DNA of 64,000 nucleotides from Chromobacterium haemolyticum DSM 19808 (lineage in GTDB: Bacteria; Pseudomonadota; Gammaproteobacteria; Burkholderiales; Chromobacteriaceae). The notes under the pieces were generated by a model. The model saw only the letters and a program-made list of their open reading frames with translations. It searched no databases and was not told the origin of the DNA. The position numbers were made by a program, and so were the translations under genes. Of this stretch, positions 1 through 54,618 are shown in pieces; positions within the stretch are counted from its first letter, which is position 1, and every line of letters begins with the position of its first letter. The DNA lies in NCBI RefSeq assembly GCF_000711885.1, contig NZ_JONK01000014.1, forward strand, positions 1 to 64,000, in the 5' to 3' direction.

Positions 1-1
1 T

Positions 2-8178: not shown

Positions 8179-8221
8179 CAGTTGCTCGGGCGGAGCGCAT
8201 CTCCAGCCAGAGTCGGCACCG

Positions 8222-8902
8222 GTGCCTCAAAATGATAAAGCCATCGATAGCGAGGTGTTCCCAGGGGACCAGGGGCGCATTCCTCATGAAACGCGCCGGG
8301 CGCTTGTTCAACTCTTGCTTGGCCCGGCTGTCGATGGACGTCGACAAGGTAATCTGTGGGCGGTACTGCTGCGCGATGAAGCGGTACTTCGGGAGCGCTT
8401 GCACGAGCTCTTCTTGGCGCTGGTCGTCGACCATGACCAGAAGGTTGCGTTTACTCGCCAGGTCATCGCTGATGACATCGAAATTCCTATCCTGCTGCGG
8501 CGAGCCAATCTGACGTTCTTGGAATCGGTACTTATCTTGTTCCTGCGACAACGCCTTACGCAGGCTGATACCCAAGGTGACCGGGCCGTCGTTTCCTGGC
8601 TGGAGATGATGGAACATCTGAGCGTTTATGAGCGTATCAGCAACGTGGACCATGCCCGCTTCGACAAGCAGCGCCAAGGAGCTATCGACAAGGCGAAGAA
8701 GCTCAACTTCCTCCAAAAGATTCGTGGTGCTGACGACCGTTTCGAGGTCTCGCCCACATTGAAGCTCCTATTCCCGGCCGAGGAAATCCAAGCTCTCACC
8801 CGCACCTATGTGGAGATGCTTCATCGCGGCCAGCCAGACGAGTCCGAAATGACCGATGAAACCGCTAACAGTGGCAACACCCCGGGAGATGACGATGAAT
8901 AG
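8222..8902 (+). CDS. jetB: Wadjet component JetB (DUF4194, KITE-like)
   Basis: Second Wadjet subunit, matching DUF4194: HETRRALVQLLLGPAVDG near the N-terminus, then LWAVLLRDEAVLRERLHELF, FTRQV and IPILLRRANLTFLESVLIL, and a C-terminal KKLNFLQKI winged-helix-like part ending in an acidic tail. By family knowledge it is the MukE-like KITE subunit that binds the JetA kleisin. The start is uncertain. The frame is open from an ATG at 8141, which would overlap jetA by 38 bases, but the first 27 residues from there look like non-coding translation, so the GTG at 8222 (226 residues) is preferred. The 3' end overlaps the jetC start by eight bases. Confidence 0.88.
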   Translation: MPQNDKAIDSEVFPGDQGRIPHETRRALVQLLLGPAVDGRRQGNLWAVLLRDEAVLRERLHELFLALVVDHDQKVAFTRQVIADDIEIPILLRRANLTFLESVLILFLRQRLTQADTQGDRAVVSWLEMMEHLSVYERISNVDHARFDKQRQGAIDKAKKLNFLQKIRGADDRFEVSPTLKLLFPAEEIQALTRTYVEMLHRGQPDESEMTDETANSGNTPGDDDE

Positions 8903-20685: not shown

Positions 20686-21726
20686 TCATCCCCACCGCTT
20701 CAGCCTCACGGTAATCACCGTCCCTTTCATCTCATATCCTGTCACACGGATGGCGGGAGGGACATCTTCGCCCTGTAGCTTTTCCAATGCGGATTTGAGA
20801 CGACGCCGAAACTCGCGCAAGTCGCAGACCACGCCGCTGTAACGCCACAAGTCAGATACCTGCAAGGCATAGGGCTTGGCATGGGTACTGTAGAAACTGG
20901 CTAACCAGGCCGGCAGCCCGGTGAAATCGTGCAGCGCGACTTCGCTGACCGCCGTCCACTCTTGCGGCCCAAACAGATTGGCCATCGAATCGAGCACCCG
21001 GAAAGCAATGACATCCCCGCCCTTCACAAGGCTACTGGCTAGGGCGGCCGCATCGTGGCCATCGTCGAAAGCCACCTCTATCAGCCTGGGCAATGGGATG
21101 TCCCTACGCTTCACCCGTAGGCGCAAATGAGCGGCATTCAACCGTATCAAGCTGGAACGCACCGCTTTGTAGACATTGGGGCCGGGCTCCACCCCAAGCT
21201 CTTTCGCAAATTGCCAGTAGGAAATCCGAATCCACTGAAAATCCCCCTGCACGGCCGACAAGGGGCGGTCTTGCCGGTAATGGTTCAGGCACACCGCAAA
21301 CACGCGCTTGTCGTAGCCGGTAAGCTGGAAACCGGTAAGCGTGATGGAGGTATCTCCTTGGGATGCAATCGTCTCCTCGACAACCGCCTCGTCGGGATTG
21401 TGCGAGGCGGCAAACAAGGCCGAGCGCAGCAGCAGATTCGGCATCCCGGTATGGGCGTCGCGCCAGGCGGGCAGGTAAACCTCCTCACCCCGCCGCACCG
21501 ACTGGCGCAGTCGCGCCTCGCGCAGCTCAACATCGGTCGCATTGGCCGCCAGCGCCAAGACAGGCTCGTTGGACGCCCGCTTGTCGGCGATGGCTTGCAT
21601 GGAGTCCGCCGCCGCGAGCGCGCAAGCTCTGACCACCTCGTCGTCGTAGGCTTCACCGGCCAAGCGTACCGCGTCGGCCTGCTGGCGCAGGCGTTCAATG
21701 ACCGCCTCGGAGGAGGTCCTAGCCAT
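20686..21726 (-). CDS. TrfA-like plasmid replication initiator
   Basis: 346-residue protein resembling the TrfA family that opens iteron-type plasmid origins. Recognisable segments: EEVYLPAWRDAHTGMPNLLL, RSALFAASHN, SQGDTSITLTGFQLTGYDKR, WIRISYWQFAKELG (first winged helix), VYKAVRSSLIRLNAAHLRLR, and a second winged-helix region FTGLPAWLASFYSTHAKPY. The ATG at 21726 overlaps the stop of the small upstream gene by eight bases, indicating translational coupling; an ORF extension to 21759 lacks support. Four iterons lie just upstream of the pair (22084-22166), as expected for the binding sites of such an initiator. No partition or conjugation genes are visible nearby, so this looks like a plasmid replicon captured in the island. 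Confidence 0.85.
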   Translation of the reverse strand: MARTSSEAVIERLRQQADAVRLAGEAYDDEVVRACALAAADSMQAIADKRASNEPVLALAANATDVELREARLRQSVRRGEEVYLPAWRDAHTGMPNLLLRSALFAASHNPDEAVVEETIASQGDTSITLTGFQLTGYDKRVFAVCLNHYRQDRPLSAVQGDFQWIRISYWQFAKELGVEPGPNVYKAVRSSLIRLNAAHLRLRVKRRDIPLPRLIEVAFDDGHDAAALASSLVKGGDVIAFRVLDSMANLFGPQEWTAVSEVALHDFTGLPAWLASFYSTHAKPYALQVSDLWRYSGVVCDLREFRRRLKSALEKLQGEDVPPAIRVTGYEMKGTVITVRLKRWG

Positions 21727-21907
21727 GACGCCGCTCCGCATTCTGGATGTAAGCGACAAGCAAGCCGCGCAGCACCGCGGAGGCCGTCATGCCTTGCGCG
21801 GCGCAAACGACGGCGAACTCGGTGCGCAGCTGCCGCGGCAGCCAAGCTTTGAACTGTACGGCATCGGGCCTATGCCGGTCTTTGGATGGCGAAGCGAAAT
21901 CCGTCAC
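21719..21907 (-). CDS. Small ribbon-helix-helix protein upstream of TrfA-like gene
   Basis: 62-residue protein with the layout of CopG/Arc-type DNA-binding proteins: a beta-strand VQFKAWLP, helix RQLRTEFAVVCAAQG, and a second helix TASAVLRGLLVAYIQ. The start is taken as the GTG at 21907, because AAAGGAG (21913-21919) lies five bases before it; a longer frame from an ATG at 21925 would place this ribosome-binding site inside the gene. Its stop overlaps the initiator start. Inference: a copy-number or autoregulatory protein of the plasmid module. An inverted repeat ATACC/GGTAT at 21932-21949 just upstream could be its operator. Confidence 0.65.
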   Translation of the reverse strand: MTDFASPSKDRHRPDAVQFKAWLPRQLRTEFAVVCAAQGMTASAVLRGLLVAYIQNAERRHG

Positions 21908-24046: not shown

Positions 24047-27000
24047 TTAGTTCTTCAGCAAAATGGCCAGGATATGGCCTGCATGGTCGCGGGCGACCGA
24101 GCGCTGCCAGCCGGCCAGCGGCACCAGCAAGCCGCCAATCCGCTTCTTCATTTCCGGGTGTAGGTCGGGCATCTGCTTCCAGTTACCCGATGCCATGGCG
24201 TGACTCAGGTCGGCATCTTCGAACAGCTTGGTAGTGACGACGCGGGCGGTATCGCTGGCCAGATGGGATTCCAGATAGTGGAACACCGCCGAATGAGCCG
24301 GGTTGGCGAAGCCGGAGTTGTCCTTGTCCTTGATGCGCTGGCCGAACAGGTCGAGCTGTTCAAGGAACTGCGCTTGCGAGATACGGCCTGCCTTCTCTTC
24401 TGCCAGTAGCTTTTCCAGCTCTTCGGCCAGCTTGTCGAAGAAGGCCGGGTCTTTGTCGCGGCCGGTGACGATGGTGTGCTTCAGCTGGTTTTTCATCACC
24501 AGCGCCTGGCTGCCGGGACTGGCCAGCTTTTTCAGGCGAGCCATGTCGGCTGCGTCAAGAATCGACACTTCCTTGCCCAATAGGCTCTTGGCCGGGCTGG
24601 CGGCAATGTATTCATCCAGCAATTGCTGCAGCAACACCGATTCCAGCTTGGTGATGCGCTCGCGGTAAGTCGCGCCCGGCAGCTTGTCGCGCAACATCAG
24701 GCGGATTTCGGCGAAGAGCGTGAAGTAGGGCTTGAATGGTACGCCACGTACATCGGGCAGGATGATGTCGACGCTGCGATTGAACTGCTTCACCAGTTCC
24801 AGAAATTCCTCAACAGCATCGAGACGGCTGGCCGGGTCGAGATAGCGCTCGGCATCGTCTTTGTAATCTTCCCGCTGCTTTACCGGGTCATGCTTCTTCG
24901 GCAGCAGCTTGAGGATGCGGTCGAGGGTGGCTTGTAGCTTGGGTAGCTCGCTTTCCACGCCTTCCCAGACCTGAATCGGCTGTACCTCGCCGCCGTAGAT
25001 TTTCAGGGCATGGTCGAGGTGCTCCACCACGCCGTGGTAATCGACGATATAGCCGGCGTTCTTGCCGGCCATGGTGCGATTCACCCGCGCGATGGCCTGC
25101 AGCAGGGTGTGTTCCTTCAGCGGCTTGTCGAGGTACATGGTGCCGACGATGGGGGCATCCCAGCCGGTCAGCAGCATGTCGGAGACGATGATGAGGCCGA
25201 CGTTGTTGGCATGGACCTGACCATCCTTGGCCTTGGTTTCATCACCATAGGGCAGCGGGAACAGCTTGCTGACGAAATTGGCAATTTGCTCGGGCGGCAT
25301 CGCCACCGGTTCCTTGCCCGCTTTGATTTCGGCCTTCACCCGCTCTTCGATGGACTGCACCTTGTCCGGGCTGACTTTGTACTCGGCCGCGGCCTCCTGC
25401 ACCGATGCGCCGGTGCGCGAAGCGGTCATGCTGGCCAGCGACACCACCACGCGGCTCTGGAAGGTTGGCAAACCCTGTGCGGCACGCTCGACCATCATGT
25501 CGTCAAGCAAATCCTTGTAGCGCACCGCCATGTCACGGCCATCGCAGACCAGCATGGCCTTCAGGCCCTTGGCCTGCACATTGGCCAGGAAGTGCTCGAC
25601 CAGATGGCTGGCAACTTGCTCCACGCGGTCGCCGGCCTGGCGCCACCGTGCCAGCAATTCCTTCTTCAGCGCATGCTGTCTGGCTTCGGATTCTTTGGCG
25701 AACTGGTCCTTGAAGGCTTGGTCCAGCTTGGCATTGGGTGCCAACTCTACCCACGCGTCCTGATATTTGATGGGCAAGGTTGCGCCATCGGCCACCGCCT
25801 CGTGCAGCCGGTATTCGTCGATATAGCCATCACCACCAAACTCGCCGAGCGTGTGTTTGTCCTCATTCAGCAGGGGCGTGCCGGTGAAGGCAATGAACTT
25901 GGCATTGGGCAGGCTGGCGCGCATGAAGGCGGCCAGGAAGTCGTACTGGCTGCGGTGGGCCTCATCCACCAGCACATAGAAGTTAGGCTTGGTACTGAGC
26001 ACCCGGAAGTGCACCTTTTCGCGGCTCACTCCTTCCCACTTGGCCGGCAGTAAAACGCCATCGGGATTGTACAGGCCAAAGTGAACGTTACGCTCCTCGA
26101 CCATGAAGAAGTCCTTATCCACGCGCACCCGTCTATGCCGGGTGGCCTGCAGGGTATCGTCTTCCTCATCGGGGGCGGTCGCGGTAGCAGTCGCGCCCGG
26201 CTGCTCGTTCTCCTGAAATTTCTGCACCGTACTGGTGAACACGCTGCCGTAATCGTTGGACAGCATCTTCACCAAACCATCGACCGACACCGCCTGAATC
26301 GCCTTGATGCCGACTGCGTGGAAGGTATCGAAGATTTGCTTGTCGAGGTCGCGCCGGTCGGTCAGCACCAGTACGGTCGGGTTATTCAGACCGGTGTTCT
26401 CAGCGCGCAGCATCCGCGCTAGCAGCGCCATGGTCAGCGATTTGCCGCTGCCTTGGGTATGCCAAACCACGCCGCCAGTGGGCTTGGATGCAGTCAGTCG
26501 GGCAATGGCTTTTCGGACCGCCCGCCACTGCTGATAGCGCGGCAGCTTCTTGACCGTCTTGCCGTCGCGGGTTTCGAACAGCACGAAGTGGGTAATGAGT
26601 TCGAGGAAGCGGGCAGGCTCGAACAAGGCCCAGAACAACTGGTCTTGCTCACGAGGCTCCGCGCCCAGCAAGGCCGCCACTTCGGCACGCTCGGCCTCCT
26701 GCAGGCGGTAATGGGAATAGAAAGCCGGCGGCGTGAAGATGGCTCCGTACATTCCTTCTCGGCGATTCAGGCCGACGCTGACCTGATTGAACACGAATTG
26801 GGCTGGGAAGCTTGCCCGGTAGCCATCCAGCTGCGCCAGCGCTTCAGCCAGCCGATGATGGCTGGCCTTGCATTCGATGATGGCCAGCGGTAAGCCGTTC
26901 ACGAACAGCAGCAGGTCGGGCCGGAACACATCGTCGTCGGCATTGCGGCCGACGTACTGGTCCACCACATGGAAGTCGTTGTTGGCGACGGAGGCGGCAT

Positions 27001-27328
27001 CGAAGAAGCGCACGCTGCGCGGCTTGCCGTCGGCATCCTTCACCTGGATGTCCGAGCGATGCACCACCTGCTCCCAGAATGCCTTGTTGGCCGGCAGCAG
27101 CTCGTCATTGACCCGTTTGCGAAGCTCCACCAGCGCCGCGGCGACGCCGCCAGGCGCCTTGGTCAGCCAAGGGTTCAGGAGAAGCAATCGGGGTTTGAGG
27201 ATGTCTTCCAGCACCGGGGCTAGGTGACGGTGCTCAACCGCTACCTTGCTGCCGGGCAGATGGGTATAGCCCAGCTTTACTAGCCATTCGATGGCTGGGC
27301 GTTCGACACCTTGTTGTTCTGACTTCAT
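24047..27328 (-). CDS. hsdR: Type I restriction enzyme endonuclease/translocase subunit HsdR
   Basis: 1093-residue motor and nuclease subunit. The PD-(D/E)xK nuclease is near the N-terminus, Asp138 in FRPDLLLF and Glu152-x-Lys154 in IIECKAS, followed by the QLDGY motif. The SF2 translocase follows with Walker [15 protein letters not shown] box [12 protein letters not shown], motif [11 protein letters not shown], and motif [12 protein letters not shown]. The C-terminal part is helical and contacts HsdM. The start at 27328 is chosen because AGGGAGGGG lies immediately upstream; a longer frame to 27373 has no such site. It is the fourth gene of hsdM-hsdS-orf-hsdR. With HsdM and HsdS it cuts DNA lacking the host methylation pattern after translocation. 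Confidence 0.95.
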
Positions 27329-27357
27329 ACCCCTCCCTCTGAACAATACCGGTTTTG

Positions 27358-27867
27358 TTATTGGCCCAACCAAATTTCATGCTGGCTTGAGGTGGCAAGT
27401 ACACCGGCTTTTATCAGCCCCCTTAGCAAGCCAACACGAGTGTGGCCTTCAACCAACCTCAATGGTGTTGGAGCACCAATCAGGTGACCTGCGATGAACA
27501 CCGGGAGACGCAACCAAGTCATGTGCTCCCGCCAGTGCGCTACAACATTGGGGCGCGTGTCGATGCAGGCCCACCCCTGAGCAGAGAACTGCGCTACTCT
27601 TTGCTCAACGCCATCTATCCAATTGTCGAAACGGTCGTAGTGACAACTCGCCGCAATCTCGGCAGCAGAAAAATCCCTCTTTTCCCACCTCAGCGAAGTG
27701 ATGTCTAGTTCACCGTATTGAGACTGGAAATCGTCTTTCCGCCCATGGTCGGCATAGACCTGAGTCAAGACATCGTCCGGTGTATCAGGCAAGCACCGCT
27801 TCAAGCTATCACGGTCAATGTTGGCAGCCGAGTCATAGGGCAAATTCAGTAGGTCACAAAATCTCAT
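27358..27867 (-). CDS. Unknown protein within the hsd operon (ParB-like motif)
   Basis: 169 residues, not assigned to a known function. It overlaps the end of hsdS by 14 bases and ends 29 bases before hsdR, so it is part of the operon. The C-terminal third contains [20 protein letters not shown] followed by HTRVGLL: the LVEGHTR stretch resembles the nucleotide-binding motif of ParB/sulfiredoxin-fold proteins. The N-terminal part includes [20 protein letters not shown] and [12 protein letters not shown], without catalytic motifs I can name. No signal peptide or membrane segment. Possible roles are regulation or modulation of the restriction complex, but this is open. Confidence 0.6.
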
Positions 27868-29146
27868 CGGTTTTTACCCGCCACTCTCCAGTAAGCAGCT
27901 TTTGCATTAGGCCTCGTTTGAGGGCTTGGAATTTCTCCCGCTTTTCCGACAACAATTTCAGCTTCCAGTCTGAAGCTGCCAAAATAGTCCCGATGTGGGC
28001 CTGTTCAGCGTCCGTTGGCAGTGGAATAGCGAATTCTCTAATACGAGTGAGGGCCAGTTTAGGCTGAGCGTTTGAAGTTGCCTCTCGTGCTATTGCATCC
28101 TGAATGGCTTCAGAGCACAGGCAGTAAAACAGGTAGTCCCGATGGATTTTGATGCTGGTGAGCTTATCAGCGTTCTCGGTCAGGTTCGCACCGTCTAACT
28201 CAGCTGGCACGATGCCAACAATACCCAGTGTGCCGGCTACCGTGATAAAGATGTCGTCCTTGGAAATTGTGTACCGCGCAATACTTGGCTGAATGTGCGA
28301 GGGAACGTAAAGGATGCCCTTGGTATCAACGCCACCCATATACATGTCGGTCACACGAATGTATGGGTAACCGGTGTTTTCTTCGGTAAGTGTTTCGCCC
28401 TTGGGTAATCGCTTGCCGCCCTTTACTTCGCAAACATCCCCAACGGTTGTGACCGTCCACCCCGCCGGAATCTCTCCCAGCTCACTGTCCTTGAACTCGG
28501 TGTGCGGCACCCAGCGGCCATCGGCATCTTGAGTGCCGACACCCCGGCTGAACAGGGTCTGCATCAGCCCGCGCTTGAGAGTCTGTGTGGCTTCAATCTG
28601 GCGTGCAATCACGTCCAGCTTGTCGTCCACGGCCGTCAGGATGGCGGCGATTTTCTGTTGTTCGGGGAGTGGAGGGAGCGGCAGCTTCAACTGCGATAGA
28701 TGGTCATAGTAGATGCGCACCCTAACGCTGCCGTCACCGGAGGTGCCAACGAACGTCTGCCACGCGTGTGAATAACGAAAGTGGTCTAGGTACTCGGGTA
28801 GCAGCCGTTGCGATACGACCTCGAAGACAACGTAATCGGGACTCACCATCACTGGATGCTGCACTTTGTTCCGAGCAATGGAACCGATATTTAAACGCAT
28901 CGGGTTATATGCGAACGCATTTACAGGCACCAACTTGCAACGGTCAGTTGAGTTGCCTTTCACTCTTTCGCGCATTGGCACAAGCCCGGCGGTCTTTAGG
29001 ACCCCGCAAAGTAAGCTGTCATCTAACTGAGCACCATTTCGATGCCTACTCTCGATAGATACATCTGCCAACGTAACCGTTTCCCAATCGCGGAAAGCCT
29101 CACCTAATTGATGCGCATCGTTTGCCTCAGCTACTTCCGCGCTCAT
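27854..29146 (-). CDS. hsdS: Type I restriction specificity subunit HsdS
   Basis: 430-residue DNA-recognition subunit with two target-recognition domains. Each half ends in a conserved helix region: [20 protein letters not shown] with KRGLMQTLF for the first and [20 protein letters not shown] with KRGLMQKLL for the second. The first recognition domain covers about residues 20-160, the second about 220-360 ([20 protein letters not shown] is its typical opening). The start overlaps the hsdM stop by four bases (ATGA), ensuring coupled translation. The recognition sequence cannot be read from the protein by eye. Confidence 0.95.
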
Positions 29147-30762
29147 GCCTCAGACTCCAGCAAGCCCAACTCCGTCAGATACCCATTCAGCCGCGCATCA
29201 ATTTGCGCTTCTTCCTCGGCCAGCGCCGCCAGTTGCGCCAAGGTGGCGCCCACATCGACGGCTTCTTCGGTCTCGCCGTTGTCGATGTAGCGGGCAATGT
29301 TGAGGTTGCCGTCATTGCTGCGGATTTCGTCCAGCGTGACCACCCGGCAATAGTTCTCGACCTCGGTCTGGTGCTCAAACGCAGCTTTGTGCGTGCTGGC
29401 GATGTGGGCGATGTCCTCGGGGCGCAGGCTGTTCTGGGCCTTGCCTTCAAGGTAGTCGCGGCTGGCGTCGATGATGATGACCTTGCCCTTGAGCGCAGCG
29501 GGCTTGCGCTTGTTCAGGACCAGCACACAGGCTGGAATGCCGGTGTTATAGAACAGCGCCGAGGGCAGGCCGATGATGGCCTCGATGAGGTCGCCGGGCT
29601 GGTTGCCGCTGGCAGCGTCGGTGCCGAACAGCAGTCCCTCGCGAATCTTGCCTTCCTCGCCACTGCGGAACAGCACGCCGTGGGGAAGTATGACGCCCAT
29701 GCGGCCATCTGCCTTGAGGCTGGCCAGCATGTGCTGGGCGAAGGCCAAGTCAGCATAGCCACGGGGCGGAATGCCGTAGACGAAGCGCCCATATTGGTCG
29801 GAGACCTGTTTGTAATTCGGGGCCTTGGGTTTCTTGTCGCTGTCCTGTTCCGCCTCTTTGGCCAGTTCCAGCGGCGCCCACCAGGCCTTGGCCGAGAACG
29901 GCGGATTGGCAATCACTCGGTCGAAGGTCTTGAGATAGTCGCCATCGAGGTGCTTGGGTTCAACCAAGGTGTCGCCGCGTTCAATCTCGGCCCGCATATT
30001 GTGCAGGTAAAGGTTCAGCTTGGCGATGGCCCAGGTGCCGAGGTTTTTCTCTTGCCCGTACAGCAGCACGTTGGGCTTGTCGCCCAACAGGGTGCCGCCG
30101 GGTAGCTTGGCAATATGGTGCGCGCTTTCCACCAACATGCCGCCACTGCCACAGGTAGGGTCGTACACGCTCATGCCGGGTTGCGGGTCGAGCAGTTCCA
30201 CCACCAGTTGCACCACACCTTTGGGGGTGTAGAACTCGCCACCCTTTTTACCTGCATCGTCGGCGAACTGCTTGATGAGGTATTCGTAGGCGTCGCCTAG
30301 CATGTCGGCCTTGTAGAGGTCATCATTGCCCAGCTGGTACTGATTGAAGTGGCGCAGCAGCCGTTGCAGGGTGTGGTCGGACAGCACGCGCTTGTCGCCA
30401 TACTGGGTGGCGGTGAGCACGTGTTGCAGGTCATTGCCCTTCACCCCGGCTTCGATGTAGTAGAACGCCTTGTCCAGCGCTTCGCCAATGTTTTCGGTAC
30501 GGGTAACCAACCATTCCCAGCGAGCCGTCCCCGGAAACGCGCCGATGTCGTCACAGACTTCGGCGTCGGCTTCTTCCCGACTGATACCTTCCTCGGCCAT
30601 CAGCTTGTTCACGCGCTCCTCGAATACATCGTTGAAACGCTTCAGGAACAGCAGGCCGAAGATATAGTTTTTGAAGTCGGACGAGTCGATGGAGCCGCGC
30701 AGGATGTTGGCGGACTCCCAAAGCCACGATTCGAGGGCTTCGAGGGTAAGTTTATTGGCCAT
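29143..30762 (-). CDS. hsdM: Type I restriction-modification methyltransferase HsdM
   Basis: 539-residue adenine-N6 methyltransferase. The N-terminal helical domain ([20 protein letters not shown]) matches HsdM_N; SAM-binding motif I is [12 protein letters not shown] near residue 200, and the catalytic motif IV is RVIANPPF near 290. It modifies host DNA with HsdS and forms the core of the restriction complex with HsdR. It is the first gene of the operon. The upstream region carries a TATAAT-like box on the minus strand inside an inverted repeat (30799-30817), suggesting a regulated promoter. Length and motifs are complete. Confidence 0.95.
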
Positions 30763-30835: not shown

Positions 30836-31744
30836 TCACGCCATCCTCCACAAACTGCGCTGCCGCCAATCCACCGGGAATCCCATTAACGTCGTATCAA
30901 TCTCCAGATGCGCCGCAATCAGGGCCTGGATTTGTCGGCTCCAGGCATGGTTCGGGCTCATCAGGTCGAGCAGGTACACTAGCATGGTCAGGGTGTTGTA
31001 CAGCAGCTGGGGCTCTGCGGGGTTAAACGCGGCTACAATGTCTTTCGGCTTCTTTTTGGGAAGTGTGAAACGCAATGCGAAACGTCGGTTCCACACCCGG
31101 CCGTGATGGGCGCAGTGGTTGCGAACAATCGTCAGGTGGTGGGTGAACGAGCACAGGACTCGTTCATCCAAGCCGTATGCATTGGCAATCGCTTGCCGGT
31201 CTTCCGCCGCTGCTAGATTCTTGAGCCAATGAGACAGGTCCCCGAACATCATCAGCTCACAAGCAACCCAGATGGGCGGGGTGTTCAGCTCAGGGTAACG
31301 GTCTCGATAATGCTCGGCAAAGGTCTCACGGCTACTCTGGTACTCCTTAAGCAGCTTGCCCTGGCTGATACCCCAGGCAACTTGGTCGTGAAATAGGGAG
31401 GCGTCATCATGCGCAAAGGCACCATAGCGGTCAGCCAGATACTGAGCAAACGTCGTGCGCAGCGAGATTTCGACCCGCTCAATGGCATCCAGTAGCAACA
31501 AGCGCAGCTCGCGGTCGAACACATAGATGGCCAATACCGTGTCAAAGTTGGTGCCGGGGGCAAAGACGTGGTCGTCCCCGTTGGTGGGCTCGGTCTCGAA
31601 TGGCAACCAATAGGCCCGCAAGCGGTAGTAATTGATATGAGTGAGGTAGTGCTTGGCGCGGTCGCGGTCGGGAAACGTCATGCCGCGCTTTTGCAGCAGG
31701 TCGATTTGTGCGTCAACGCTGAGGGACGGTTTAAGAAAGGTCAT
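30836..31744 (-). CDS. Abi_2 (AbiD/AbiF)-family abortive infection protein
   Basis: 302 residues of the Abi_2 family, related to lactococcal AbiD/AbiF. Typical features: [20 protein letters not shown] at the start, [38 protein letters not shown], and near the C-terminus [17 protein letters not shown]. The RNHCAH stretch fits the R(x4)H motif of HEPN RNases, so RNA cleavage during infection is plausible; this is family-based inference. The ATG at 31744 is chosen because the family begins there; the frame extends to 31855 without conserved sequence. It lies as a separate unit between hsdM and the M-S fusion gene, both on the same strand. Confidence 0.85.
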
Positions 31745-31932
31745 TTCCGCCGCCAGAAATGAGAAACCCGCCTGGTGCGCATCGTGGAGAGGCGTGGCGG
31801 GTGTTGTTACGCATATGGTACTCATTGAGTACGCAAATGTCCACCGCTCCCGCACACGCCTTCCATAAAGTATTGTTTTTATTCATGCCTTTAGCCCCTT
31901 GAAGTCATCTCTATGGTTGTGATGCCGACATG

Positions 31933-33705
31933 TCATGGCTTGCCTAATGTGGCCGGCCAGCGTTGCCGTGCAATGTCCGTCATCTCCCCTTCCAGACTGG
32001 CTATCTGCTGCTCAAGCTCACAGAGTCGGTCATAGTCCTGCAGGATTTCCTGGCAACGTTCTGCCGATGGCATCGGTATCGACACCGCTCCTAGGAGAGT
32101 TTTGGGGCTAATGTGCGGCACCCCCGCGCCTACTTGAAGGCCAGCTAGTTGTGCTTGGCCGTGGGGCGACCGGAGGTACATGACCAGAACCTCAGCAGGC
32201 AGGTGTTTATTTGGTTGCTTGGGGTTCAGGCGCAACGCGAGGCAACTCTGTGACACGACGGTGGGTCTGTTCTGTGCCGACCCACCCATCAGCGCAACAC
32301 GCCCGACTGAGCCTTTGATGGCAATCACGACATCTCCGGGTTTAACCAGCGTCGCCGCTCTAGGTTCTGATTTCAGGTAGGTGGTCTTTTCGATGGTGTT
32401 ATTGATAGGTTGCCATTTATTCAGGTCCGGCAAGCCTACTTCTGTAACCTCGAGCGCACTCTTTTCCTTTGAGGTTGCGGGCGGTCTTACCGCTTCACAG
32501 AGGTCCCCAAGCTTGACTACCTCATCGCCCAAGTCAGTCACTCGCCGCAAATAGCGGGAGGGGGCAAAGCTATGTTCGTTTTCTGCAATTTCCTCGCAGC
32601 TGACCCAGCTGGACTTATCCGACGCTTGCTGTTCAAGCACCATCACCCGAGCGGCTGACAAAATATCACCGGCCTCTTGAAGGGAGCGGCGACCGCTGAC
32701 AAGGTCCGCCATGAAAACGGTATCGGTTGGCCCAACTGCATTAAACATGAGGATGGCACCAGAAAGGGCGGTAGCGCCGAGTGTTCCCGGAGGCAATGCG
32801 ACAACAGTTTGGAGTGCGCGGGATTGATTGCCTAGCAGGTATTCACGCAAGCGCTGCTCTTGGCCTAGCGCGAACAAAACCCCTTGTAATGTTACAAAAA
32901 CCACTCGCTGGTTAATGCGATTCACGAATTCAAATAAGGCCCAGGACTCGCTACGCGTGAACCGCTCATAGGGGCGAGTCCTCGTAACGTCCCAACTCCA
33001 CACACGGCCATTTTTTACTGGCATGCCGAATGGAGGCACAACGAGGCCATAGTCCGCACGCAGCTCGAGATACCCCATCACGTCGCCTCCACTCTCAGTC
33101 CGAACGGATGGCGGCTGTGGCTGACCTGTTTCAATCGTCAAAAGGAGTTGTCGGATGAGCGGCCAGGATGCCAAGGGAGACGTTGCAAGAACACGCCAAC
33201 CACGGCGGAGTGCTTCGACGGTTAGCTGTCCTTTGACGTCGAATGGAATCCAGACCTCACTGTCCGGCGGAGCATCAACCATATCCATCAGCAGAGAAGA
33301 CATTTCAGGTATAAAAGTGCCTTCTGCATAGTCTCTGCGGCCAGAAGATTCGGACAGACAAGGCAGAACATCCCACCGCTGCACCCCAAGCTCCATTTCC
33401 AGGCCGGAAACAATATCCGCAGCTGCTACTCGTCGACTGACATCATTCCCAACTGCCGAAGACCAGGGTGCGCTAATCAGGTTATGCGCTTCCGCGGGGA
33501 ATCCTGCGTCTACCAGCTTTTCCCACGCATGTGGTTCGACCAATTCACGAACAGCAAAGACGCCCCCAGCTTGTTGCAGGGCAACCATGCGCCCAGCAGC
33601 GAGCCAGGTCAGAGCGAACAGTTGGGCGTCATGGGCGCCGTCAAGACGCGCAAGGTCAGCCAGTTGCCAGTAAGCCTTTGTTGCGGGGGTGTCGGTTCGT
33701 GCCAT
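31933..33705 (-). CDS. Fusion of degenerate N6-methylase-like domain and HsdS-type specificity domain
   Basis: 590 residues. The first about 380 residues resemble a type I/IIG N6-adenine methylase fold, but motif I (DPxCGSGG in active enzymes) is replaced by a PFDVKGQLT-like segment and the catalytic NPPF is VPPF in YGLVVPPFGMPV, so methylation activity is doubtful. The C-terminal about 190 residues form a single HsdS-like recognition half: VVKLGDLCEAVRPPATSKEK, KPGDVVIAIKGSVGRVAL, VVSQSCLALRLNP, HGQAQLAGLQVGAGVPHISP, and a terminal coiled coil. It could be a DNA-reading component of an unusual defence system or a decayed modification enzyme. No matching restriction subunit is next to it. The ATG at 33705 is preferred because a promoter (-35 at 33763-33768, -10 at 33740-33745) overlaps the earlier ATG at 33741. 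Confidence 0.65.
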   Translation of the reverse strand: MARTDTPATKAYWQLADLARLDGAHDAQLFALTWLAAGRMVALQQAGGVFAVRELVEPHAWEKLVDAGFPAEAHNLISAPWSSAVGNDVSRRVAAADIVSGLEMELGVQRWDVLPCLSESSGRRDYAEGTFIPEMSSLLMDMVDAPPDSEVWIPFDVKGQLTVEALRRGWRVLATSPLASWPLIRQLLLTIETGQPQPPSVRTESGGDVMGYLELRADYGLVVPPFGMPVKNGRVWSWDVTRTRPYERFTRSESWALFEFVNRINQRVVFVTLQGVLFALGQEQRLREYLLGNQSRALQTVVALPPGTLGATALSGAILMFNAVGPTDTVFMADLVSGRRSLQEAGDILSAARVMVLEQQASDKSSWVSCEEIAENEHSFAPSRYLRRVTDLGDEVVKLGDLCEAVRPPATSKEKSALEVTEVGLPDLNKWQPINNTIEKTTYLKSEPRAATLVKPGDVVIAIKGSVGRVALMGGSAQNRPTVVSQSCLALRLNPKQPNKHLPAEVLVMYLRSPHGQAQLAGLQVGAGVPHISPKTLLGAVSIPMPSAERCQEILQDYDRLCELEQQIASLEGEMTDIARQRWPATLGKP

Positions 33706-33769
33706 GGTGTGTTGGAAAGCACTGGATTGCGATATCCCCATAGTATCAGCGTGCAATTAGCAATGCAAG

Positions 33770-34012: not shown

Positions 34013-34360
34013 TTAGTCTGGCTGGATTGGCTTGTCTTCCTGCGACGAGGATGCGTCTTTGTTCTGCTGCAGGACATACAAGCAGGCCAACATAAAGCCG
34101 GCGCTGAAATTTCCCCGGTTGATGCGCCGGTTGAGTACCGCCGCGCTTCGCCTGATACCCAAGGGCTTCAGCGCAGCAGACAATTCCTGGTAGCCCCAGC
34201 CCCGTTTGAGCATCGCTTGCTTCACCATGCGGTAAGCCTCCATTCCCCACTCTTCTGCCGCCGCACCCTCTGTCTTGGCCTCTCCCTGCTTGGTCAGGGA
34301 AATCGGCCTTCCTACCTTGTTGATTATCACCATCCACTCCTGGGCAAGCTGGCTCGCCAT
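34013..34360 (-). CDS. DUF6471 small protein
   Basis: 115 residues with a DUF6471 core: YRMVKQAMLKRGWGYQELSA, LKPLGIRRSAAVLNRRINRG, NFSAGFMLACLYVLQ. The pattern (a helix-turn-helix-like region with NRRINRGNFSA) suggests DNA binding, but no function is established. It is divergent from the TnsAB gene with about 76 bases between starts, so it could regulate the transposition genes; two GTCAATT direct repeats ten bases apart (34362-34378) lie at its start. The frame extends six bases to a TTG at 34366; the ATG at 34360 is preferred. Confidence 0.65.
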   Translation of the reverse strand: MASQLAQEWMVIINKVGRPISLTKQGEAKTEGAAAEEWGMEAYRMVKQAMLKRGWGYQELSAALKPLGIRRSAAVLNRRINRGNFSAGFMLACLYVLQQNKDASSSQEDKPIQPD

Positions 34361-34436
34361 GGTCAATTAGAGTCAATTTTGGCACGACAGCGCTCAAGCT
34401 GGTTATACCTCAGCCCAAACATAATTGAGGCAGAAC

Positions 34437-37157
34437 ATGCTTGAGAAACCCCTGCGAGAGCGTCTGCTGGACCGGCTTGGCACACCGTCAGCCGGTATGC
34501 GGCTGATTCTGGATGCCGTGAAGTACGCTCCCGTGCGCAAGGTTGAGTCCCGCGGTGGCGGTAATGTCATCACGCCGCTGCAGAGCCGCAAGATGCAGCG
34601 CACCGTGGAAACGGAAAGCCGACACCTAGAATTCCCTGTGGCGGTCAGCCTGGAGCATGACCCGGCGGTGCTCGAATACTATCCCCAGCCGAGCCAGCTC
34701 AAGTTCGAGGTCATCGATGCCGATGGCGAAATCCACGCCATCGACCATATACCGGACTTCCTGGTCGTCACCGAGCGTGAAGTCTGGTTCCTGGAGTGCA
34801 AGCCCTGGAGCAAGCTCGAGAAACTGGCTCAGCGCTACCCCTGGCGCTATCAACTCGACCCGGACAATCACTGGCGTGCCCCACTGATTGAAGAGTGGTT
34901 GGCAGCGCGCGGGATTGGCTACCGAATCCAGACTGACCGAGACATCCCGCAACGCCGTATCGAGAACACCCTGTTCCTCGAGGACTACCTCGACCCAAGC
35001 GCGCCGCCATGCCCGGTCGACATAGCCGTGCGGGTCCAAGAAGCATTGGTCGCGGATGCCACCCTTTATCTGGCTGAACTCTACGACAAAGCCGATTGCC
35101 GGCCGGATGAGGTCTTCAAGCTGATTGCAGACGGACAACTGGTCGCCGAGATAGACTTTGCCGCTCTTAGCGAGCCAACCCGCTGCCGGGTGTTTCGGGA
35201 CACGGCGGTACGAGACTTTGAACGGGCCCGGCAACGTCCGACGCCCTTTGCCATACCGGGTGTCGTCGACATCAAAGTCGGCGCCCATCTCGTGTATGAC
35301 CAGCAGCCCTACAAAGTAGTCTTGGTGGGCGGTAGCAAGGTCATTCTTGAATCCGAAGATGGTAAGTCTGTAGAAACCGAGCTTGAAACCTTAGAAAAGC
35401 TCGTGGCCCAGCAAAATCTCCTGATAACCAACGAAGCCTCGTTGGGCCAGGAACCGGTCCGCCTTTCAGACTACACCGAAAGTGAGCTGAAAATGGCCTT
35501 GAGCCGATTGAACGGACTCGAGAACATCTCCCTGCCCAATCGGACTCAGCGCCGACATCTCAAAGCGCTCGGCCTCGCTAAATTGGCGGGTGCTGACGAA
35601 TTGATAGCCCTGGTGCCGCGGCTGCGCGACCGCGGCAATCGCAACCCGCGCCTGAGCCCCGAACAGGAATCTGCCATGGAGCAGGTCATTCGGGACGAGT
35701 ATCTGACCAGCAACGCCCCCAATGCCCGGCATTGCCACCGCAAGCTCGTTATTTTGTGTGCCCAACTCGGCATCAAGGCCCCGTCCTACCCGACGCTGAT
35801 TGAGCGCATCGAGGCTCTTCCACAAAAGCAGGCCGACCGAGCCCGCCATGGCAATCGGGTCGCGTATCAAAATGCGGAGTTCGTCAATGTCCTGCATGCC
35901 GATACACCGGTACACGGTTCTCGAGCCTTCCAGTACGTGCACATGGACCATACCGAACTCGACATCGAACTGGTGTCTGCAAAGAACGGCAAGCCATTAG
36001 GTCGTCCGTGGCTCTCTTTCGCCATCGATGCATTCACTCGGCGAATCCTCGGCCTGTACCTGTCGTACGACCCGCCGTCGTATCGCTCGAACATGATGCT
36101 GCTGCGAGACATCGTTCGCCGCCATCGCCGCTTGCCGCAGTTCATTGTGGTGGATAACGGAGCGGACTTCCGCAGTGAAGACTTCAAGCACTTCTGCGCG
36201 CTGATGCGCATTCACCTGCGTTACCGTCCTGCCGGCCGTCCGCGCCATGGTTCGGTGATGGAACGCATCTTCGGTCGCGCGCACACCGAGTATGTGCATA
36301 ACCTGGCCGGCAATACGAAAGCCATGAAAGCCGTGCGCAGTACGACGGGCAAGTTTCTGCCGTCACGCTTGGCCGAGTGGACGCTCCAGGCCATGTATTA
36401 CGGTCTCGAATACTGGGCCTTCACCTACTACGACAATGAGGTGCATTCCGCTTTGGGGCTGAGTCCCCATGATGCCTTCATGCGCAGCCAGTCCTTGTCC
36501 GGGAGCCGTGAGCACCGCATCGTCACGCTGACTCAGGACTTCCTTATCCTGACTTGCCCAACCGTCAGCAGAGCGGGACTGCGCACGGTGGACCGCCAGC
36601 GTGGCATCAAAGTGCATGCCAACTACTTCTATTGGTGCCCGGAATTCTGCGACCCGAAGATGCACGGCAAGAAGCTGCCGGTGCGCTACGACCCCTGGGA
36701 TGGCGCCACCGTCTACGTCCAAATCAACAAGCGCTGGGTCCCGGCGCAGTGCAAGGCGCTGGTCAATCTGGGACAGTTGACCGAGAAAGAGCGCGAGTTG
36801 CTGTCGCAGGAAATGCGCGCTCGCTACCGGATGGACGACAACGACGAGCCATCCCTGCAGCGACTGACCGAGTTCATGCAAGTGTTCACGCCGGAAGGCG
36901 CCATGGCACTGGCGTTCCAACGGCAACAGGAAAACCGCGAACTGTACCAAGGCATGGGTATTGGTGCCATCGCGCCTCCCACAAGCCAACCCGCTATCGC
37001 TCCTGCGTCAATACCAACTCAGCGACAGGCTCTGGATAGTGCCAACACCGTAAACGAAGTCCCCCCATATCAGCTCACCACTGCAAACCCGTCCAGTGAT
37101 GATGCAGACGACATCCCTGAACTCGATATCTTCTGGAATTGGAACAACCGCCTATGA
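34437..37157 (+). CDS. Tn7-like transposase, TnsA-TnsB fusion
   Basis: 906 residues that combine the two strand-cutting enzymes of Tn7-like elements. The N-terminal part (about 55-180) looks like a TnsA nuclease: Glu73 or Glu80 in SLEHDPAVLEYYPQP, Asp107 in DHIPDFLVV, and Glu120-x-Lys122 in WFLECKPW. The rest is TnsB/Mu-type: helical DNA-binding region, DDE catalytic domain with Asp504 (YVHMDHTELD), Asp573 (FIVVDNGADF) and Glu609 (GSVMERIFGR), and a Mu-type C-terminal barrel with KVHANYFYWCPEF. TnsB joins the 3' ends; TnsA cuts the 5' ends, so a cut-and-paste mode is expected. The ATG at 34437 has GAGG six bases upstream; a TTG at 34425 is possible. It overlaps tnsC by four bases. Confidence 0.88.
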   Translation: MLEKPLRERLLDRLGTPSAGMRLILDAVKYAPVRKVESRGGGNVITPLQSRKMQRTVETESRHLEFPVAVSLEHDPAVLEYYPQPSQLKFEVIDADGEIHAIDHIPDFLVVTEREVWFLECKPWSKLEKLAQRYPWRYQLDPDNHWRAPLIEEWLAARGIGYRIQTDRDIPQRRIENTLFLEDYLDPSAPPCPVDIAVRVQEALVADATLYLAELYDKADCRPDEVFKLIADGQLVAEIDFAALSEPTRCRVFRDTAVRDFERARQRPTPFAIPGVVDIKVGAHLVYDQQPYKVVLVGGSKVILESEDGKSVETELETLEKLVAQQNLLITNEASLGQEPVRLSDYTESELKMALSRLNGLENISLPNRTQRRHLKALGLAKLAGADELIALVPRLRDRGNRNPRLSPEQESAMEQVIRDEYLTSNAPNARHCHRKLVILCAQLGIKAPSYPTLIERIEALPQKQADRARHGNRVAYQNAEFVNVLHADTPVHGSRAFQYVHMDHTELDIELVSAKNGKPLGRPWLSFAIDAFTRRILGLYLSYDPPSYRSNMMLLRDIVRRHRRLPQFIVVDNGADFRSEDFKHFCALMRIHLRYRPAGRPRHGSVMERIFGRAHTEYVHNLAGNTKAMKAVRSTTGKFLPSRLAEWTLQAMYYGLEYWAFTYYDNEVHSALGLSPHDAFMRSQSLSGSREHRIVTLTQDFLILTCPTVSRAGLRTVDRQRGIKVHANYFYWCPEFCDPKMHGKKLPVRYDPWDGATVYVQINKRWVPAQCKALVNLGQLTEKERELLSQEMRARYRMDDNDEPSLQRLTEFMQVFTPEGAMALAFQRQQENRELYQGMGIGAIAPPTSQPAIAPASIPTQRQALDSANTVNEVPPYQLTTANPSSDDADDIPELDIFWNWNNRL

Positions 37158-38161
37158 CTACCCAAGCCAATACAACTCAAAATGCTACCGTCGAATCAAG
37201 CCACCTCCGTCATCCTCATCTGGCCTCAATCATCGAGGAATGCCAACTGATGCAGGAAGCAGGCAACAACGCCAACCTAATTTTACTGTGCGGCCCGACC
37301 GGCGTCGGAAAAACCACTCTAGGATATTTTCTTGTGGGTACCGAATTGCAACGCCAAACCGAGACCATGGCCACAAACCCTGGTTTTATTCCTGCCATCC
37401 GAGTGGAGGCACCAGCTTCTGGAGAGCGAGAATTTTCCTGGCGCTTGTTCTATCAACGCATCTTGCATGCTTTGGAGGGTGAACTCGACGTACCACGAAC
37501 AGCCTATAGCGTAGACCCGACAACGGGGAGACTGGTTCGTCCCACCGGAACACAATCCAATAGGCTGTCAGGACTGCGCACCGCCGTGGAGCGCTCGCTC
37601 CGGAATCGTGGCACCCGTTTTATCGTGGTCGACGAGGCTGCCCACATGATGCGCCAATGCCGTCCGAATCAACTCGAGCAACAACTCGATACGCTGAAGT
37701 CGCTATCTAATGAGTTCGGCGTGCAGTGGATTCTGCTGGGTTCGTATGACCTATTCGAACTGGCCACGCTGAACGGACAATTGGCACGCCGCACCCACGT
37801 CATTCACTTCGGCCGATACCGCGAAGATGTCCCCGAAGATGTACTCGCCTTCCGCCGCTGCCTGATAAAATTGGGGAAAGGCATGCCTGCCTTGAAAGAT
37901 GTAGATTTACAGCGCTACGCTGATGTATTTCAGCAAAACACCCTGGGCTGCATCGGCACCCTGCGAACTCTGCTCATGCGCTTGAATTTGATGGTGGCAG
38001 GAAAAGGCTGGTCAGAAGACTTGCTGTGCCGCGCGCTGATGACTGAAGCCCAAACCACGCAAATCCTGCGCGAAATTCTTGAAGGCGAAGAACGCATTGC
38101 GCCTGGACTCAAACGCAGCTTGCTACCTGCCCAGTTCGCGACGAAAACGAAGGTGGCCTGA
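37154..38161 (+). CDS. tnsC: Tn7-like transposition regulator TnsC/TniB (AAA+ ATPase)
   Basis: 335-residue AAA+ ATPase linking target selection to the transposase. Walker A GPTGVGKTT and Walker B RFIVVDEAAHM with the sensor region VQWILLGSYDLFEL are clear; arginine-rich segments follow. In Tn7-like systems it polymerises on target DNA, contacts the TniQ protein and activates TnsAB. The start at 37154 lies in the ATGA overlap with the TnsAB stop. It ends one base into tniQ (TGATG), so all three genes are translationally coupled. Confidence 0.9.
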   Translation: MTTQANTTQNATVESSHLRHPHLASIIEECQLMQEAGNNANLILLCGPTGVGKTTLGYFLVGTELQRQTETMATNPGFIPAIRVEAPASGEREFSWRLFYQRILHALEGELDVPRTAYSVDPTTGRLVRPTGTQSNRLSGLRTAVERSLRNRGTRFIVVDEAAHMMRQCRPNQLEQQLDTLKSLSNEFGVQWILLGSYDLFELATLNGQLARRTHVIHFGRYREDVPEDVLAFRRCLIKLGKGMPALKDVDLQRYADVFQQNTLGCIGTLRTLLMRLNLMVAGKGWSEDLLCRALMTEAQTTQILREILEGEERIAPGLKRSLLPAQFATKTKVA

Positions 38162-39441
38162 TGATGCAATTGATTCAACCTCCACGCTCCACTCTTCACG
38201 CACTGGCCCCGCAAGGTTTGGACACTCCCGACGTGGAAAGTTTGACCAGTTACGTTTGCCGTCTGGCCCACTCCCATGGCATAACCAGCCAGAGGCTAGT
38301 CGATTGGGTACTTGGCTTTTTTGAACATTCGGTATGTGACAAATACGGCTGGCACCAACGCAATCTGTCCAGCATGTCGGCCGAGAGCGAACAGTGGGCA
38401 GCTTGGCTGTCAGAACTGACGGGAGTCGAATCGCTGGACAGCCTGACCCTCTCTCCATATCGCCGTCTGCTAGGCACGCCGGGCCTGGCGCCGAGGTCTG
38501 ACCGTTGGTGCCCTTGCTGCTTCAGCGAAGATAAGCAGCGCGGCGAGGAACCCTATCTGCGCTTGGCTTGGGACATTGCCCCGGTTGAGGCCTGTCTTAA
38601 GCATAAGGTCAAGCTGACTTCCATTTGCCCGCATTGCCAACGCAGCAACGTCCGAAACCGTGCGGCCATCGTCGTTCCTGGATATTGCACCGCCTGCGGA
38701 GGCTTTCTCGGGGAGGGGAGCCCAGAGCCAGCTACGCCGGAGTCGCTGTGGACAGCGCGTCAGGTTGGCAACATGCTGGCGCATCGCCCGCAAGTAGCCG
38801 CGGAAGGCGTGGTGCCCTTGCTAGAAACGATTATTGAGCGGATGGCCGATGGCAAGATTACCTGTTTTGCCAGCAGTTATGGTTTCTCCAAGAGCGGCGT
38901 CTGGCACTGGCTGAGAAAGGGTGGCCTGCCTGGCATCAAAGCCTGGCTGACGATTGCGCTGCATGGCGGCATCGGCTTGGACAAACTGTTCGCCGGCGAG
39001 GTCCAGAACTGGGCAATGCCGCATCAGCCCTTGCAACTGAACATTGCGCTGTCCGAATCGCCTCGTGCTGGCATCCAGTCGCGCGAGCTGGATTGGGAAG
39101 AAATCCGCGCCAGTTTGCGTTTGATGCTTGAGCTTCCCACGCCCCTTTCCATCAACGAAGCGGGTAAACGTGTGGGAATCGGCCGCAAACACCTGTACCT
39201 GCGGGCGAATGCCGAGGCCCGTGCGATTGCAGACCGCCATCGCCGCTACCGCGCGGCCTCCAAACAACAACACGTTGACGAACTACGGGCCAAGATTGAG
39301 ATGTTGCTCGACGAGCGACTGGAGGCGGGATATGAAGGAATCAGCGCGCGCGACATCTGGGCGCGGCTGGACACGGAAGCGCAATCCGTCAACGGCATCT
39401 TCCACCACATCAATCTGGTCATCTCAAGCCGCTACGGCTGA
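38161..39441 (+). CDS. tniQ: TniQ/TnsD-like target-site selector
   Basis: 426-residue targeting protein. The TniQ N-terminus (LTSYVCRLAHSHGITSQRLV) is followed by zinc-binding cysteines: RWCPCC, VEACLKHKVKLTSICPHC, and YCTACGGFLG. The C-terminal half includes HTH-like segments (SYGFSKSGVWHWLRKGGL and GKRVGIGRKHLYLRANAEA), as in TnsD-type selectors that recognise a fixed chromosomal site. The gene ends about 230 bases from the 3' end of a tRNA-Ala gene, which makes that tRNA the obvious candidate attachment site. No Cas genes or CRISPR array are present in the window, so this is not an RNA-guided version as far as can be seen. Confidence 0.9.
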   Translation: MMQLIQPPRSTLHALAPQGLDTPDVESLTSYVCRLAHSHGITSQRLVDWVLGFFEHSVCDKYGWHQRNLSSMSAESEQWAAWLSELTGVESLDSLTLSPYRRLLGTPGLAPRSDRWCPCCFSEDKQRGEEPYLRLAWDIAPVEACLKHKVKLTSICPHCQRSNVRNRAAIVVPGYCTACGGFLGEGSPEPATPESLWTARQVGNMLAHRPQVAAEGVVPLLETIIERMADGKITCFASSYGFSKSGVWHWLRKGGLPGIKAWLTIALHGGIGLDKLFAGEVQNWAMPHQPLQLNIALSESPRAGIQSRELDWEEIRASLRLMLELPTPLSINEAGKRVGIGRKHLYLRANAEARAIADRHRRYRAASKQQHVDELRAKIEMLLDERLEAGYEGISARDIWARLDTEAQSVNGIFHHINLVISSRYG

Positions 39442-39464
39442 CCGCGCGCGCAGCCAGAAAACCA

Positions 39465-39490
39465 AAACGGGACCTTCGGGTCCCGTTTTT
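39465..39490 (+). terminator. Rho-independent terminator after tniQ
   Basis: Stem AACGGGACC / GGTCCCGTT with a TTCG tetraloop, ending in TTTTT. It lies 23 bases after the tniQ stop and closes the transposition operon. Confidence 0.85.
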
Positions 39491-39672
39491 CATGTCTGGA
39501 ATCTTTGCCGCCAAGTAGATAATGCACTGGTTTGCAAGGAAAAATCGATTATTGTACTACGCCGTTCCCCGTAAACCATAATGTGTCCAAACGGGAAATA
39601 AAGCATATCTTGGCCACCTGGCCACTTTATGCTTAACGGCACAGTCACATGGGGAAACAAGGGAGGGGAAGA

Positions 39673-39748
39673 TGGTGGACCGAAGGAGGATCGAACTCCC
39701 GACCTCTGCATTGCGAACGCAGCGCTCTCCCAGCTGAGCTATCGGCCC
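39673..39748 (-). tRNA. tRNA-Ala (anticodon CGC)
   Basis: 76-base cloverleaf on the minus strand. The acceptor stem GGGCCGA pairs with TCGGTCC and includes the G3-U70 wobble that identifies alanine tRNAs. The D arm (GCTC...GAGC) and anticodon arm CTGCG-TTCGCAA-TGCAG give anticodon CGC; the T arm is GGGAG-TTCGATC-CTCCT, and CCA is encoded. The 3' end faces the accessory island, the usual arrangement when a mobile element has inserted at a tRNA gene. Folding was done by eye. Confidence 0.93.
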
Positions 39749-54404: not shown

Positions 54405-54478
54405 TTGCGCCGATAACGCCCTGGAATCCAGAACCGGACACAAAGATTTACAAAGCAGGCTTGGGACGGGCTTTTAGA

Positions 54479-54618
54479 ACCTGTTCACAGTCTCGCGAGC
54501 AAGAGCGAGACAAGGCGAAAACGGCAGAGAACACGGAGTGTACGCACCGTATATGAGTATTTCGAAGGCATGCTCACCGTGTCAGGCGTCCACGACACGC
54601 AACAGATCGTGAACAGGT
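54479..54618. repeat. Inverted-repeat-bounded intergenic element (MITE-like)
   Basis: A 140-base stretch bounded by ACCTGTTCAC (54479-54488) and its exact complement GTGAACAGGT (54609-54618). It has no gene and lies between the efflux gene and the LysR gene. A partly similar sequence occurs at about 41513-41556 (CACCGTATAT and a GAACCTGTT-like end), suggesting a dispersed repeat family in this genome. Confidence 0.5.

Follow-up and report, generated by a model that had tools for sequence, protein, structure and literature searches.

How a Tn7-like operon came to lie beside a tRNA gene, and what directs such an element there, is the question raised by the first 64,000 nucleotides of contig NZ_JONK01000014.1 of Chromobacterium haemolyticum DSM 19808 (hereafter the window), in which tnsAB, tnsC and tniQ genes end close to tRNA-Ala(CGC). 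A first-pass annotation of these letters had proposed a Tn7-like core with a TnsA-TnsB fusion, perhaps a protein-guided relative of transposons associated with clustered regularly interspaced short palindromic repeats (CRISPR-associated transposons, CASTs), carrying defence cargo to a tRNA site. Our analysis bears this out. The element belongs to the known TnsA-TnsB-fused, tRNA-homing branch of Tn7, of which it is a betaproteobacterial representative free of CRISPR; it is very probably a cut-and-paste transposon with a TnsD-type selector that homed past tRNA-Ala(CGC) with defence genes on board. The genome assembly (G000) has 63 contigs, among them C12, whose start is the window, and C41 and C44, referred to below.

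The TnsAB-TnsC-TniQ operon

34437–37157, + strand: tnsAB, TnsA endonuclease fused to TnsB DDE transposase (ATG at 34437; reading frame open from TTG 34425)
37154–38161, + strand: tnsC, AAA+ ATPase (ATG at 37154, overlapping the tnsAB stop; reading frame open from TTG 37139)
38161–39441, + strand: tniQ, long target selector of the TnsD type (1-bp overlap between its start and the tnsC stop; Pfam TniQ)
39464–39489: terminator-like hairpin downstream of tniQ (flagged on the − strand by the terminator scan; + strand T-run seen by eye)
39673–39748, − strand: tRNA-Ala(CGC), the attachment gene

All three reading frames are open and coupled by overlapping stops and starts, as first described. They unite a DDE transposase (TnsB), an AAA+ TnsC and TniQ in one operon, the hallmark of Tn7-like elements; no TnsE match was found by a Pfam scan of 19 window proteins. 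The active-site residues named in the first-pass annotation fit a numbering from the ATG at 34437, are intact, and are conserved in a 24-row alignment: gaps set aside, D107 and E120 are kept in 21/21 rows, K122 in 20/21 (one R), D504 in 23/23, and D573 and E609 in 24/24 each. Mu-transpos_C and HTH_Tnp_Mu_2 scored above the Pfam cut-off in TnsAB and rve just below it; TnsA-N also fell just under the cut-off, and D107, E120 and K122 point to a TnsA-type endonuclease suited to cut-and-paste transposition.

TnsAB is collinear over residues 8–839 with its nearest solved structure, PmcCAST TnsAB (9bw1, E = 3.8e-142). TnsC, with Pfam AAA_22 and TniB matches and Walker A and B motifs kept across 22 aligned rows, has PmcCAST TnsC as its best PDB match (8fcu, 6e-40). 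For TniQ, PmcCAST TnsD (8v32, 1.2e-30, residues 5–381) ranks ahead of PmcCAST TniQ (1e-22, residues 6–213), and eight Cys/His residues are kept in every row with a letter there (21 rows, one gap). An AlphaFold model of TniQ had a mean predicted local distance difference test score of 50 and was not used. The PDB entries are listed by molecule name only; in line with a published abstract, we take them to be those of the I-B2 PmcCAST system. Since the nearest solved structures are those of I-B2 PmcCAST, the element is placed in the known TnsA-TnsB-fused, tRNA-homing branch.

Ends, target duplication and attachment site

39571–39589, + strand: TnsB-like site 3 of the tRNA-side end (profile score 26.1)
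39598–39616, + strand: TnsB-like site 2, head-to-head with the terminal site (score 22.9)
39619–39637, − strand: terminal TnsB-like site 1, in the opposite orientation to sites 2 and 3 (score 26.8)
39620–39643, − strand: tRNA-side terminus, outside-in TGTGCCGTTAAGCATAAAGTGGCC (last element base 39643)
39644–39648: 5-bp target duplication GTCAC (other copy at C41:23177–23181, beside the far end)

The operon points at tRNA-Ala(CGC), from which tniQ is separated by 231 bases (about 230 had been estimated), with 29 bp between the 3′ base of the tRNA gene and the element. We call this end tRNA-side or operon-side; in the convention used in the part of PMC11406308 considered here, the end downstream of the operon is the left end. 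The far end lies at C41:23182, where GTCAC is followed by TGTGCCGTTAAGC, while on the tRNA side ACA is followed by GTCAC; as GTCAC adjoins both ends, the 5-bp duplication is exact. TGT/ACA termini and arrays of TnsB-like sites are present at both ends. The site profile was trained on operon-side ends, the three window sites included, and the scores of the inner sites on C41, at 23210 (23.4), 23307 (12.5) and 23337 (18.3), are therefore independent of the training. The element thus delimited measures about 40 kb plus an unassembled gap.

Of the two intervals singled out for an end scan in the first-pass annotation, 39.49–39.67 kb does hold the near end. Pattern scans found no partner end in the window, 33.7–34.4 kb included, and a far end inside the window was dropped once that on C41 had been found. 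A near end reading TGTGAC at 39649 was likewise discarded, the conserved terminus of the relatives, TGTGCCGTTAAGC, starting six bases further in. A search of the own genome allowing up to 3 mismatches returned three places: the window end, C41:23182 and a place on C44. The last (G000:C44:1186–1209; L073, L075) is an end of another end family, TGTGACCGGAACCATAAGCTGGCC, elsewhere in the same genome. An older element beneath the present one was also considered: read from the side of the tRNA, the C41 flank gives TGTGACCGTAAGCCTGTCTTGGCC, which resembles the remnant of an end. A partner for it was not found, the pattern occurs in 0 of the 18 other genus genomes compared, and we leave it as a hint.

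Homing to the tRNA gene is seen in other genera as well. A scan of genome contigs yielded six close relatives (L062–L067; 61–74% identical in the best segment) from Accumulibacter, Azoarcus, Alcaligenaceae, Allopusillimonas, Aromatoleum and a proteobacterial metagenome-assembled genome. In four of the six (L062, L063, L066 and L067) the end is followed after 26–29 bp by tRNA-Ala(CGC) in the same orientation, and the 24-mer TGTGCCGTTAAGCATAAAGTGGCC is identical at the corresponding place; L065 has one mismatch in it. The L063 contig repeats its own sequence in inverted orientation, which is probably an artefact of assembly, and its two tRNA copies were therefore scored once; tnsAB of L067 is only partial, and the L064 contig stops too soon to be scored.

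Within the genus, the tRNA flank of G001, G004, G005 and G012 is 95% identical to that of the window, and homology stops at 39651–39655, just outside the element end. C41:14000–18625 is 96.5% identical to a G005 region that starts about 5 kb past the same tRNA. G009 holds a second element of which both ends were found, the duplication (ACTCT) again being exact. Its operon is nearly identical to that of G014 (TnsAB 98%, TnsC 100%, TniQ 94%), and the genes between tniQ and the tRNA differ. The end of an older element abuts the far end of the G009 TnsAB element (L093 6425–6460; G009:C97:10528–10558), and from these abutting ends elements seem to stack at the same tRNA.

Beside the same tRNA-Ala, seven genus relatives carry a transposase-less cassette of three genes (PAD_porph, LysR, amidase) with TnsB-like end motifs nearby (L054 13163–17508; L042, L043, L044, L052, L055 and L057). 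The amidase is 96–98% identical in the seven, and PAD_porph or LysR is unmatched in some. The idea that the transposase-less elements of seven genus relatives are moved in trans by the TnsAB family was set aside: in several genomes the end motif stands only 7–13 bp from the tRNA (by eye), so that these elements look altered. An intergenic repeat of about 70–135 bp at window 54474–54605 is found again farther down the contig and in the pieces surrounding the tRNA in G001, G004, G005 and G012.

The wider branch of fused-TnsAB elements

An order-wide search that included the own genome gave 4 of 399 genomes at E ≤ 1e-120 and 11 of 399 at 1e-60, and a class search gave 1 of 369 at 1e-120, the own genome itself. 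In the genus, some TnsB-like match at 0.001 occurs in 11 of 19 genomes, with long fusion-type matches in G009, G014 and G002 besides the own genome.

Eighteen operon-side ends could be read, 13 of which lie, in the same orientation, 25–30 bp from a tRNA or transfer-messenger RNA (tmRNA) gene that points towards the end. The gene is tRNA-Ala(CGC) for the window, L062, L063, L066, L067, G009, G014, G446 (tnsAB broken) and G527 (tnsAB truncated), tRNA-Ser(TGA) for G533 and G570, and tRNA-Arg(CCG) for G769; in G549 (L083 5964–6360) the element lies 29 bp from the 3′ end of a tmRNA (Rfam E = 5.7e-86). G009/G014 and G533/G570 are near-duplicate pairs, and about 11 of the 13 ends are therefore independent. 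Not scorable were L064, G726, G569 and G602 (contig ends), G649 (a fragment), G002:C205 (a 6.3-kb contig), and G002:C199 and Caballeronia (end not found, stretch without tRNA). Left out of the count were G002:C153, which combines a TnsAB-like fragment with a TGAAAC-type end next to its tRNA-Ala, as well as those genus relatives in which TGAAAC-type ends occur and no tnsAB match lies nearby.

The phylogeny called for in the first-pass annotation was computed for TnsAB (22 rows, partial L067 and G527 omitted) and TniQ (21 rows). In both trees the window groups with the close tRNA-Ala elements, the tmRNA element stands further out, and G009, G014, G446 and G533 fall in a different set (several supports are below 95, and G769 has a long branch). 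Users of tRNA-Ala(CGC) thus occur in both sets, two separate parts of the tree.

Cargo

325–1122, − strand: VRR_NUC nuclease-domain protein (family match)
1122–3983, − strand: VgrG, type VI secretion system spike (homologues 71–72% identical left of tnsAB in G009 and G014)
6712–13425, + strand: Wadjet JetA, JetB, JetC and JetD (PADLOC)
13922–20536, + strand: 2204-aa helicase-nuclease, PDC-S37 / Hhe-like (family match)
24047–30762, − strand: type I restriction-modification, comprising HsdR, a 169-aa open reading frame without family match, HsdS and HsdM (Pfam, PADLOC)
30836–31855, − strand: AbiD (Abi_2; Pfam)
31933–33756, − strand: N6-methylase / specificity-domain protein (Pfam)
34013–34366, − strand: DUF6471 protein, divergent from tnsAB (Pfam)

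The defence cargo proposed at first sight is thus present as Wadjet, type I restriction, AbiD and PDC-S37-like genes. The VgrG homologue lies inside the element in G009 and left of tnsAB in G014, and the DUF6471 protein is a possible regulator. A cargo protein at 20686–21759 has a weak, sub-threshold match to TrfA, a plasmid replication initiator. The contig opens with an insertion sequence (IS) fragment (window 1–335), and 102 bp from the end of this fragment are found again, in inverted orientation, at the C41 end.

Design of the element ends

At all 18 operon-side ends the terminal TnsB-like site stands head-to-head with its neighbour (mostly by eye; G769 is least regular), whereas G000 and G009 have direct sites at their far ends. 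In RNA folding of the head-to-head ends, at most 1 of 200 shuffles folded as well in seven of eight ends; for the window's own end the figure was 14 of 200. In G003 a clear terminator-like hairpin follows the tRNA, and the G009 insertion sits in the loop of the same sequence (by eye, the only direct comparison). On the tRNA strand, the T-run that goes with the stem of the window end is weak; the terminator scan flagged the other strand only. Possibly the end hairpin replaces a tRNA terminator that insertion has split.

A more comprehensive reading is tentative and, taken as a whole, rather doubtful. Under it, the entire TnsA-TnsB-fused branch would share an undescribed end design, with the operon-side terminal site inverted head-to-head and the far-end sites direct, which would set the polarity of insertion; the hairpin would replace the split tRNA or tmRNA terminator; and the TnsD family would read T-arm and acceptor DNA common to tRNA and tmRNA genes, C-terminal changes shifting it from tRNA-Ala to tRNA-Ser, tRNA-Arg or tmRNA. 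Neither a head-to-head end nor tmRNA as a Tn7-type site was mentioned in the portions of the literature searched, though both may already be in print. According to the part of PMC8649781 considered here, the ends of the I-B2 CAST could not be predicted in an automatic survey, the filter of which wants at least two inverted repeats common to both ends. A head-to-head end may explain this failure.

Weighing the explanations

Several observations speak against a single transposon homed to this tRNA. Contigs C41 and C12 are not joined, and the edges of both carry the same IS end, unlike one simple IS copy, which suggests that some intervening element DNA is unassembled. Apart from G005, C41 matched the compared pieces of relatives over at most about 130 bp, the IS stretch included. 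An empty site, whose absence was to count against homing, was recovered in part: the tRNA-side flank occurs without the element in G001, G004, G005 and G012, and the exact empty junction (24-base pattern, up to 3 mismatches) in 0 of 18 other genus genomes. Relatives of the operon at unrelated sites were also to count against it, and one of the five scorable close relatives is of this kind: L065 (TnsAB 61% identical) has its end in DNA where no tRNA was found, the other four lying at the same tRNA. In all, 5 of the 18 ends read have no tRNA in the stretches examined, namely L065 and the cyanobacterial plasmid loci L100–L103, the ends of which are putative; nor was one found in those of Caballeronia (two copies) and G002:C199. 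Outside the window clade, moreover, ends were mostly read off the tRNA flank, which makes their spacing less independent. As to L065, its TniQ is 48–61% identical to the others by segment over residues 1–330 but only 35–39% over 331–426, a part that is 55–62% identical among tRNA-Ala elements (pairs compared); in this single case the divergent C-terminal part is consistent with a changed target.

Three other histories of the locus can be set beside a homed, protein-guided transposon. With proteins of the I-B2 CAST PmcCAST as its best PDB matches, the element could be a CAST resembling I-B2 or I-D, its own Cas genes having been lost at this locus or their role being filled by Cas proteins acting in trans. 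However, the operon encodes only one TniQ, of the long TnsD type, and the early observation that no Cas genes or array are visible has held: PF01905 (DevR/Cas7), the sole Cas family searched genome-wide, had no match in the 63 contigs (it matched 2 of 14 control genomes, both archaea), window 1–39700 holds no CRISPR-like array (direct repeats of at least 20 bases within 150 bases), and a PADLOC scan of 18 cargo proteins gave no match to a Cas effector model, the protein at 5688–6587 matching WYL regulator models. Within the scope of these searches, the CAST hallmark of Cascade genes and a CRISPR array inside the element was not found; we consider a CAST very improbable here, and with its single long TnsD-type TniQ the element looks protein-guided. 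tRNA genes are also common sites of genomic islands, and in G003 an integrase-like reading start lies just past the same tRNA (by eye), so that tnsAB, tnsC and tniQ might be mere passengers of an integrase-type island. Crossover in the tRNA gene would leave a repeat of it, yet no exact tRNA run of 12 or more bases exists in C41:14000–23755; instead there are TGT termini accompanied by TnsB-like sites, and a 5-bp duplication that is exact, and we give this history hardly any credence.

A dead relic, homed once and immobile since, is unlikely. IS ends at both contig edges would fit it, as would the lack of a second copy in the own genome and of a close copy elsewhere in the genus (18 other genomes, with about 30% identity in the best full-length matches). 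Against a relic stand the three open frames with intact active-site residues and the recovery of both termini; the near-identical G009 and G014 operons with different genes between tniQ and the tRNA point to recent movement. For the homed transposon that we prefer, cut-and-paste chemistry and present-day activity are inferred from homology with PmcCAST and analogy with Tn7.

Relation to known systems and implications

PmcCAST (Tn7744, I-B2, from a Peltigera membranacea cyanobiont) shares with the element the fused TnsAB and homologous TnsC and TnsD. In the parts of the sources considered, its TnsD homes to a tRNA gene (PMC11406308) and a tRNA-Val target plasmid is named (PMC10293859). The present element differs in that no Cas genes and no short TniQ were found, the target is tRNA-Ala(CGC) rather than tRNA-Val, and its relatives are betaproteobacterial. 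The I-D systems CyCAST and McCAST also combine fused TnsAB with TnsD, and CyCAST homes about 30–33 nt past tRNA-Leu, as given in the same part of PMC10293859, close to the 25–30 bp of the elements here, in which, by contrast, no Cascade genes and no second TniQ were found. CRISPR-free fused-TnsAB Tn7-like elements are known from cyanobacteria, as the portion of PMC11406308 considered reports citing Hsieh and Peters 2022; those described here are in Betaproteobacteria, at tRNA-Ala(CGC), tRNA-Ser, tRNA-Arg and tmRNA. Insertion downstream of tRNAs is noted in the part of PMC8649781 considered. With Tn7 (TnsABCDE, glmS) the element has in common TnsC with a TnsD-type selector, insertion past a conserved gene, a 5-bp duplication and TGT ends; it differs in its TnsA-TnsB fusion, in the head-to-head terminal TnsB-like site and in an operon directed towards the attachment gene. 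The Tn7 operon points away from its attachment gene.

By homology with PmcCAST, and as in Tn7, the long TniQ would bind the 3′ part of the tRNA-Ala(CGC) gene and recruit TnsC, which would bring TnsAB with the paired ends. The element would then be inserted in a single orientation some 29 bp beyond the tRNA, which would itself stay intact, and a 5-bp duplication would result. In this way its load of defence genes would spread. TnsD homing to the tRNA gene is suggested by position and homology, binding itself being predicted.

With this element, the I-B2 and I-D CASTs gain a CRISPR-free relative that has one selector and for which both ends, the target duplication and the attachment site are defined. 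The relatives of the element pair TnsD sequences with neighbouring genes (tRNA-Ala, tRNA-Ser, tRNA-Arg, tmRNA), which makes the choice of tRNA by TnsD testable, with the PmcCAST structures as templates. Within one genus, a single tRNA gene serves as a repeated docking place for such elements.

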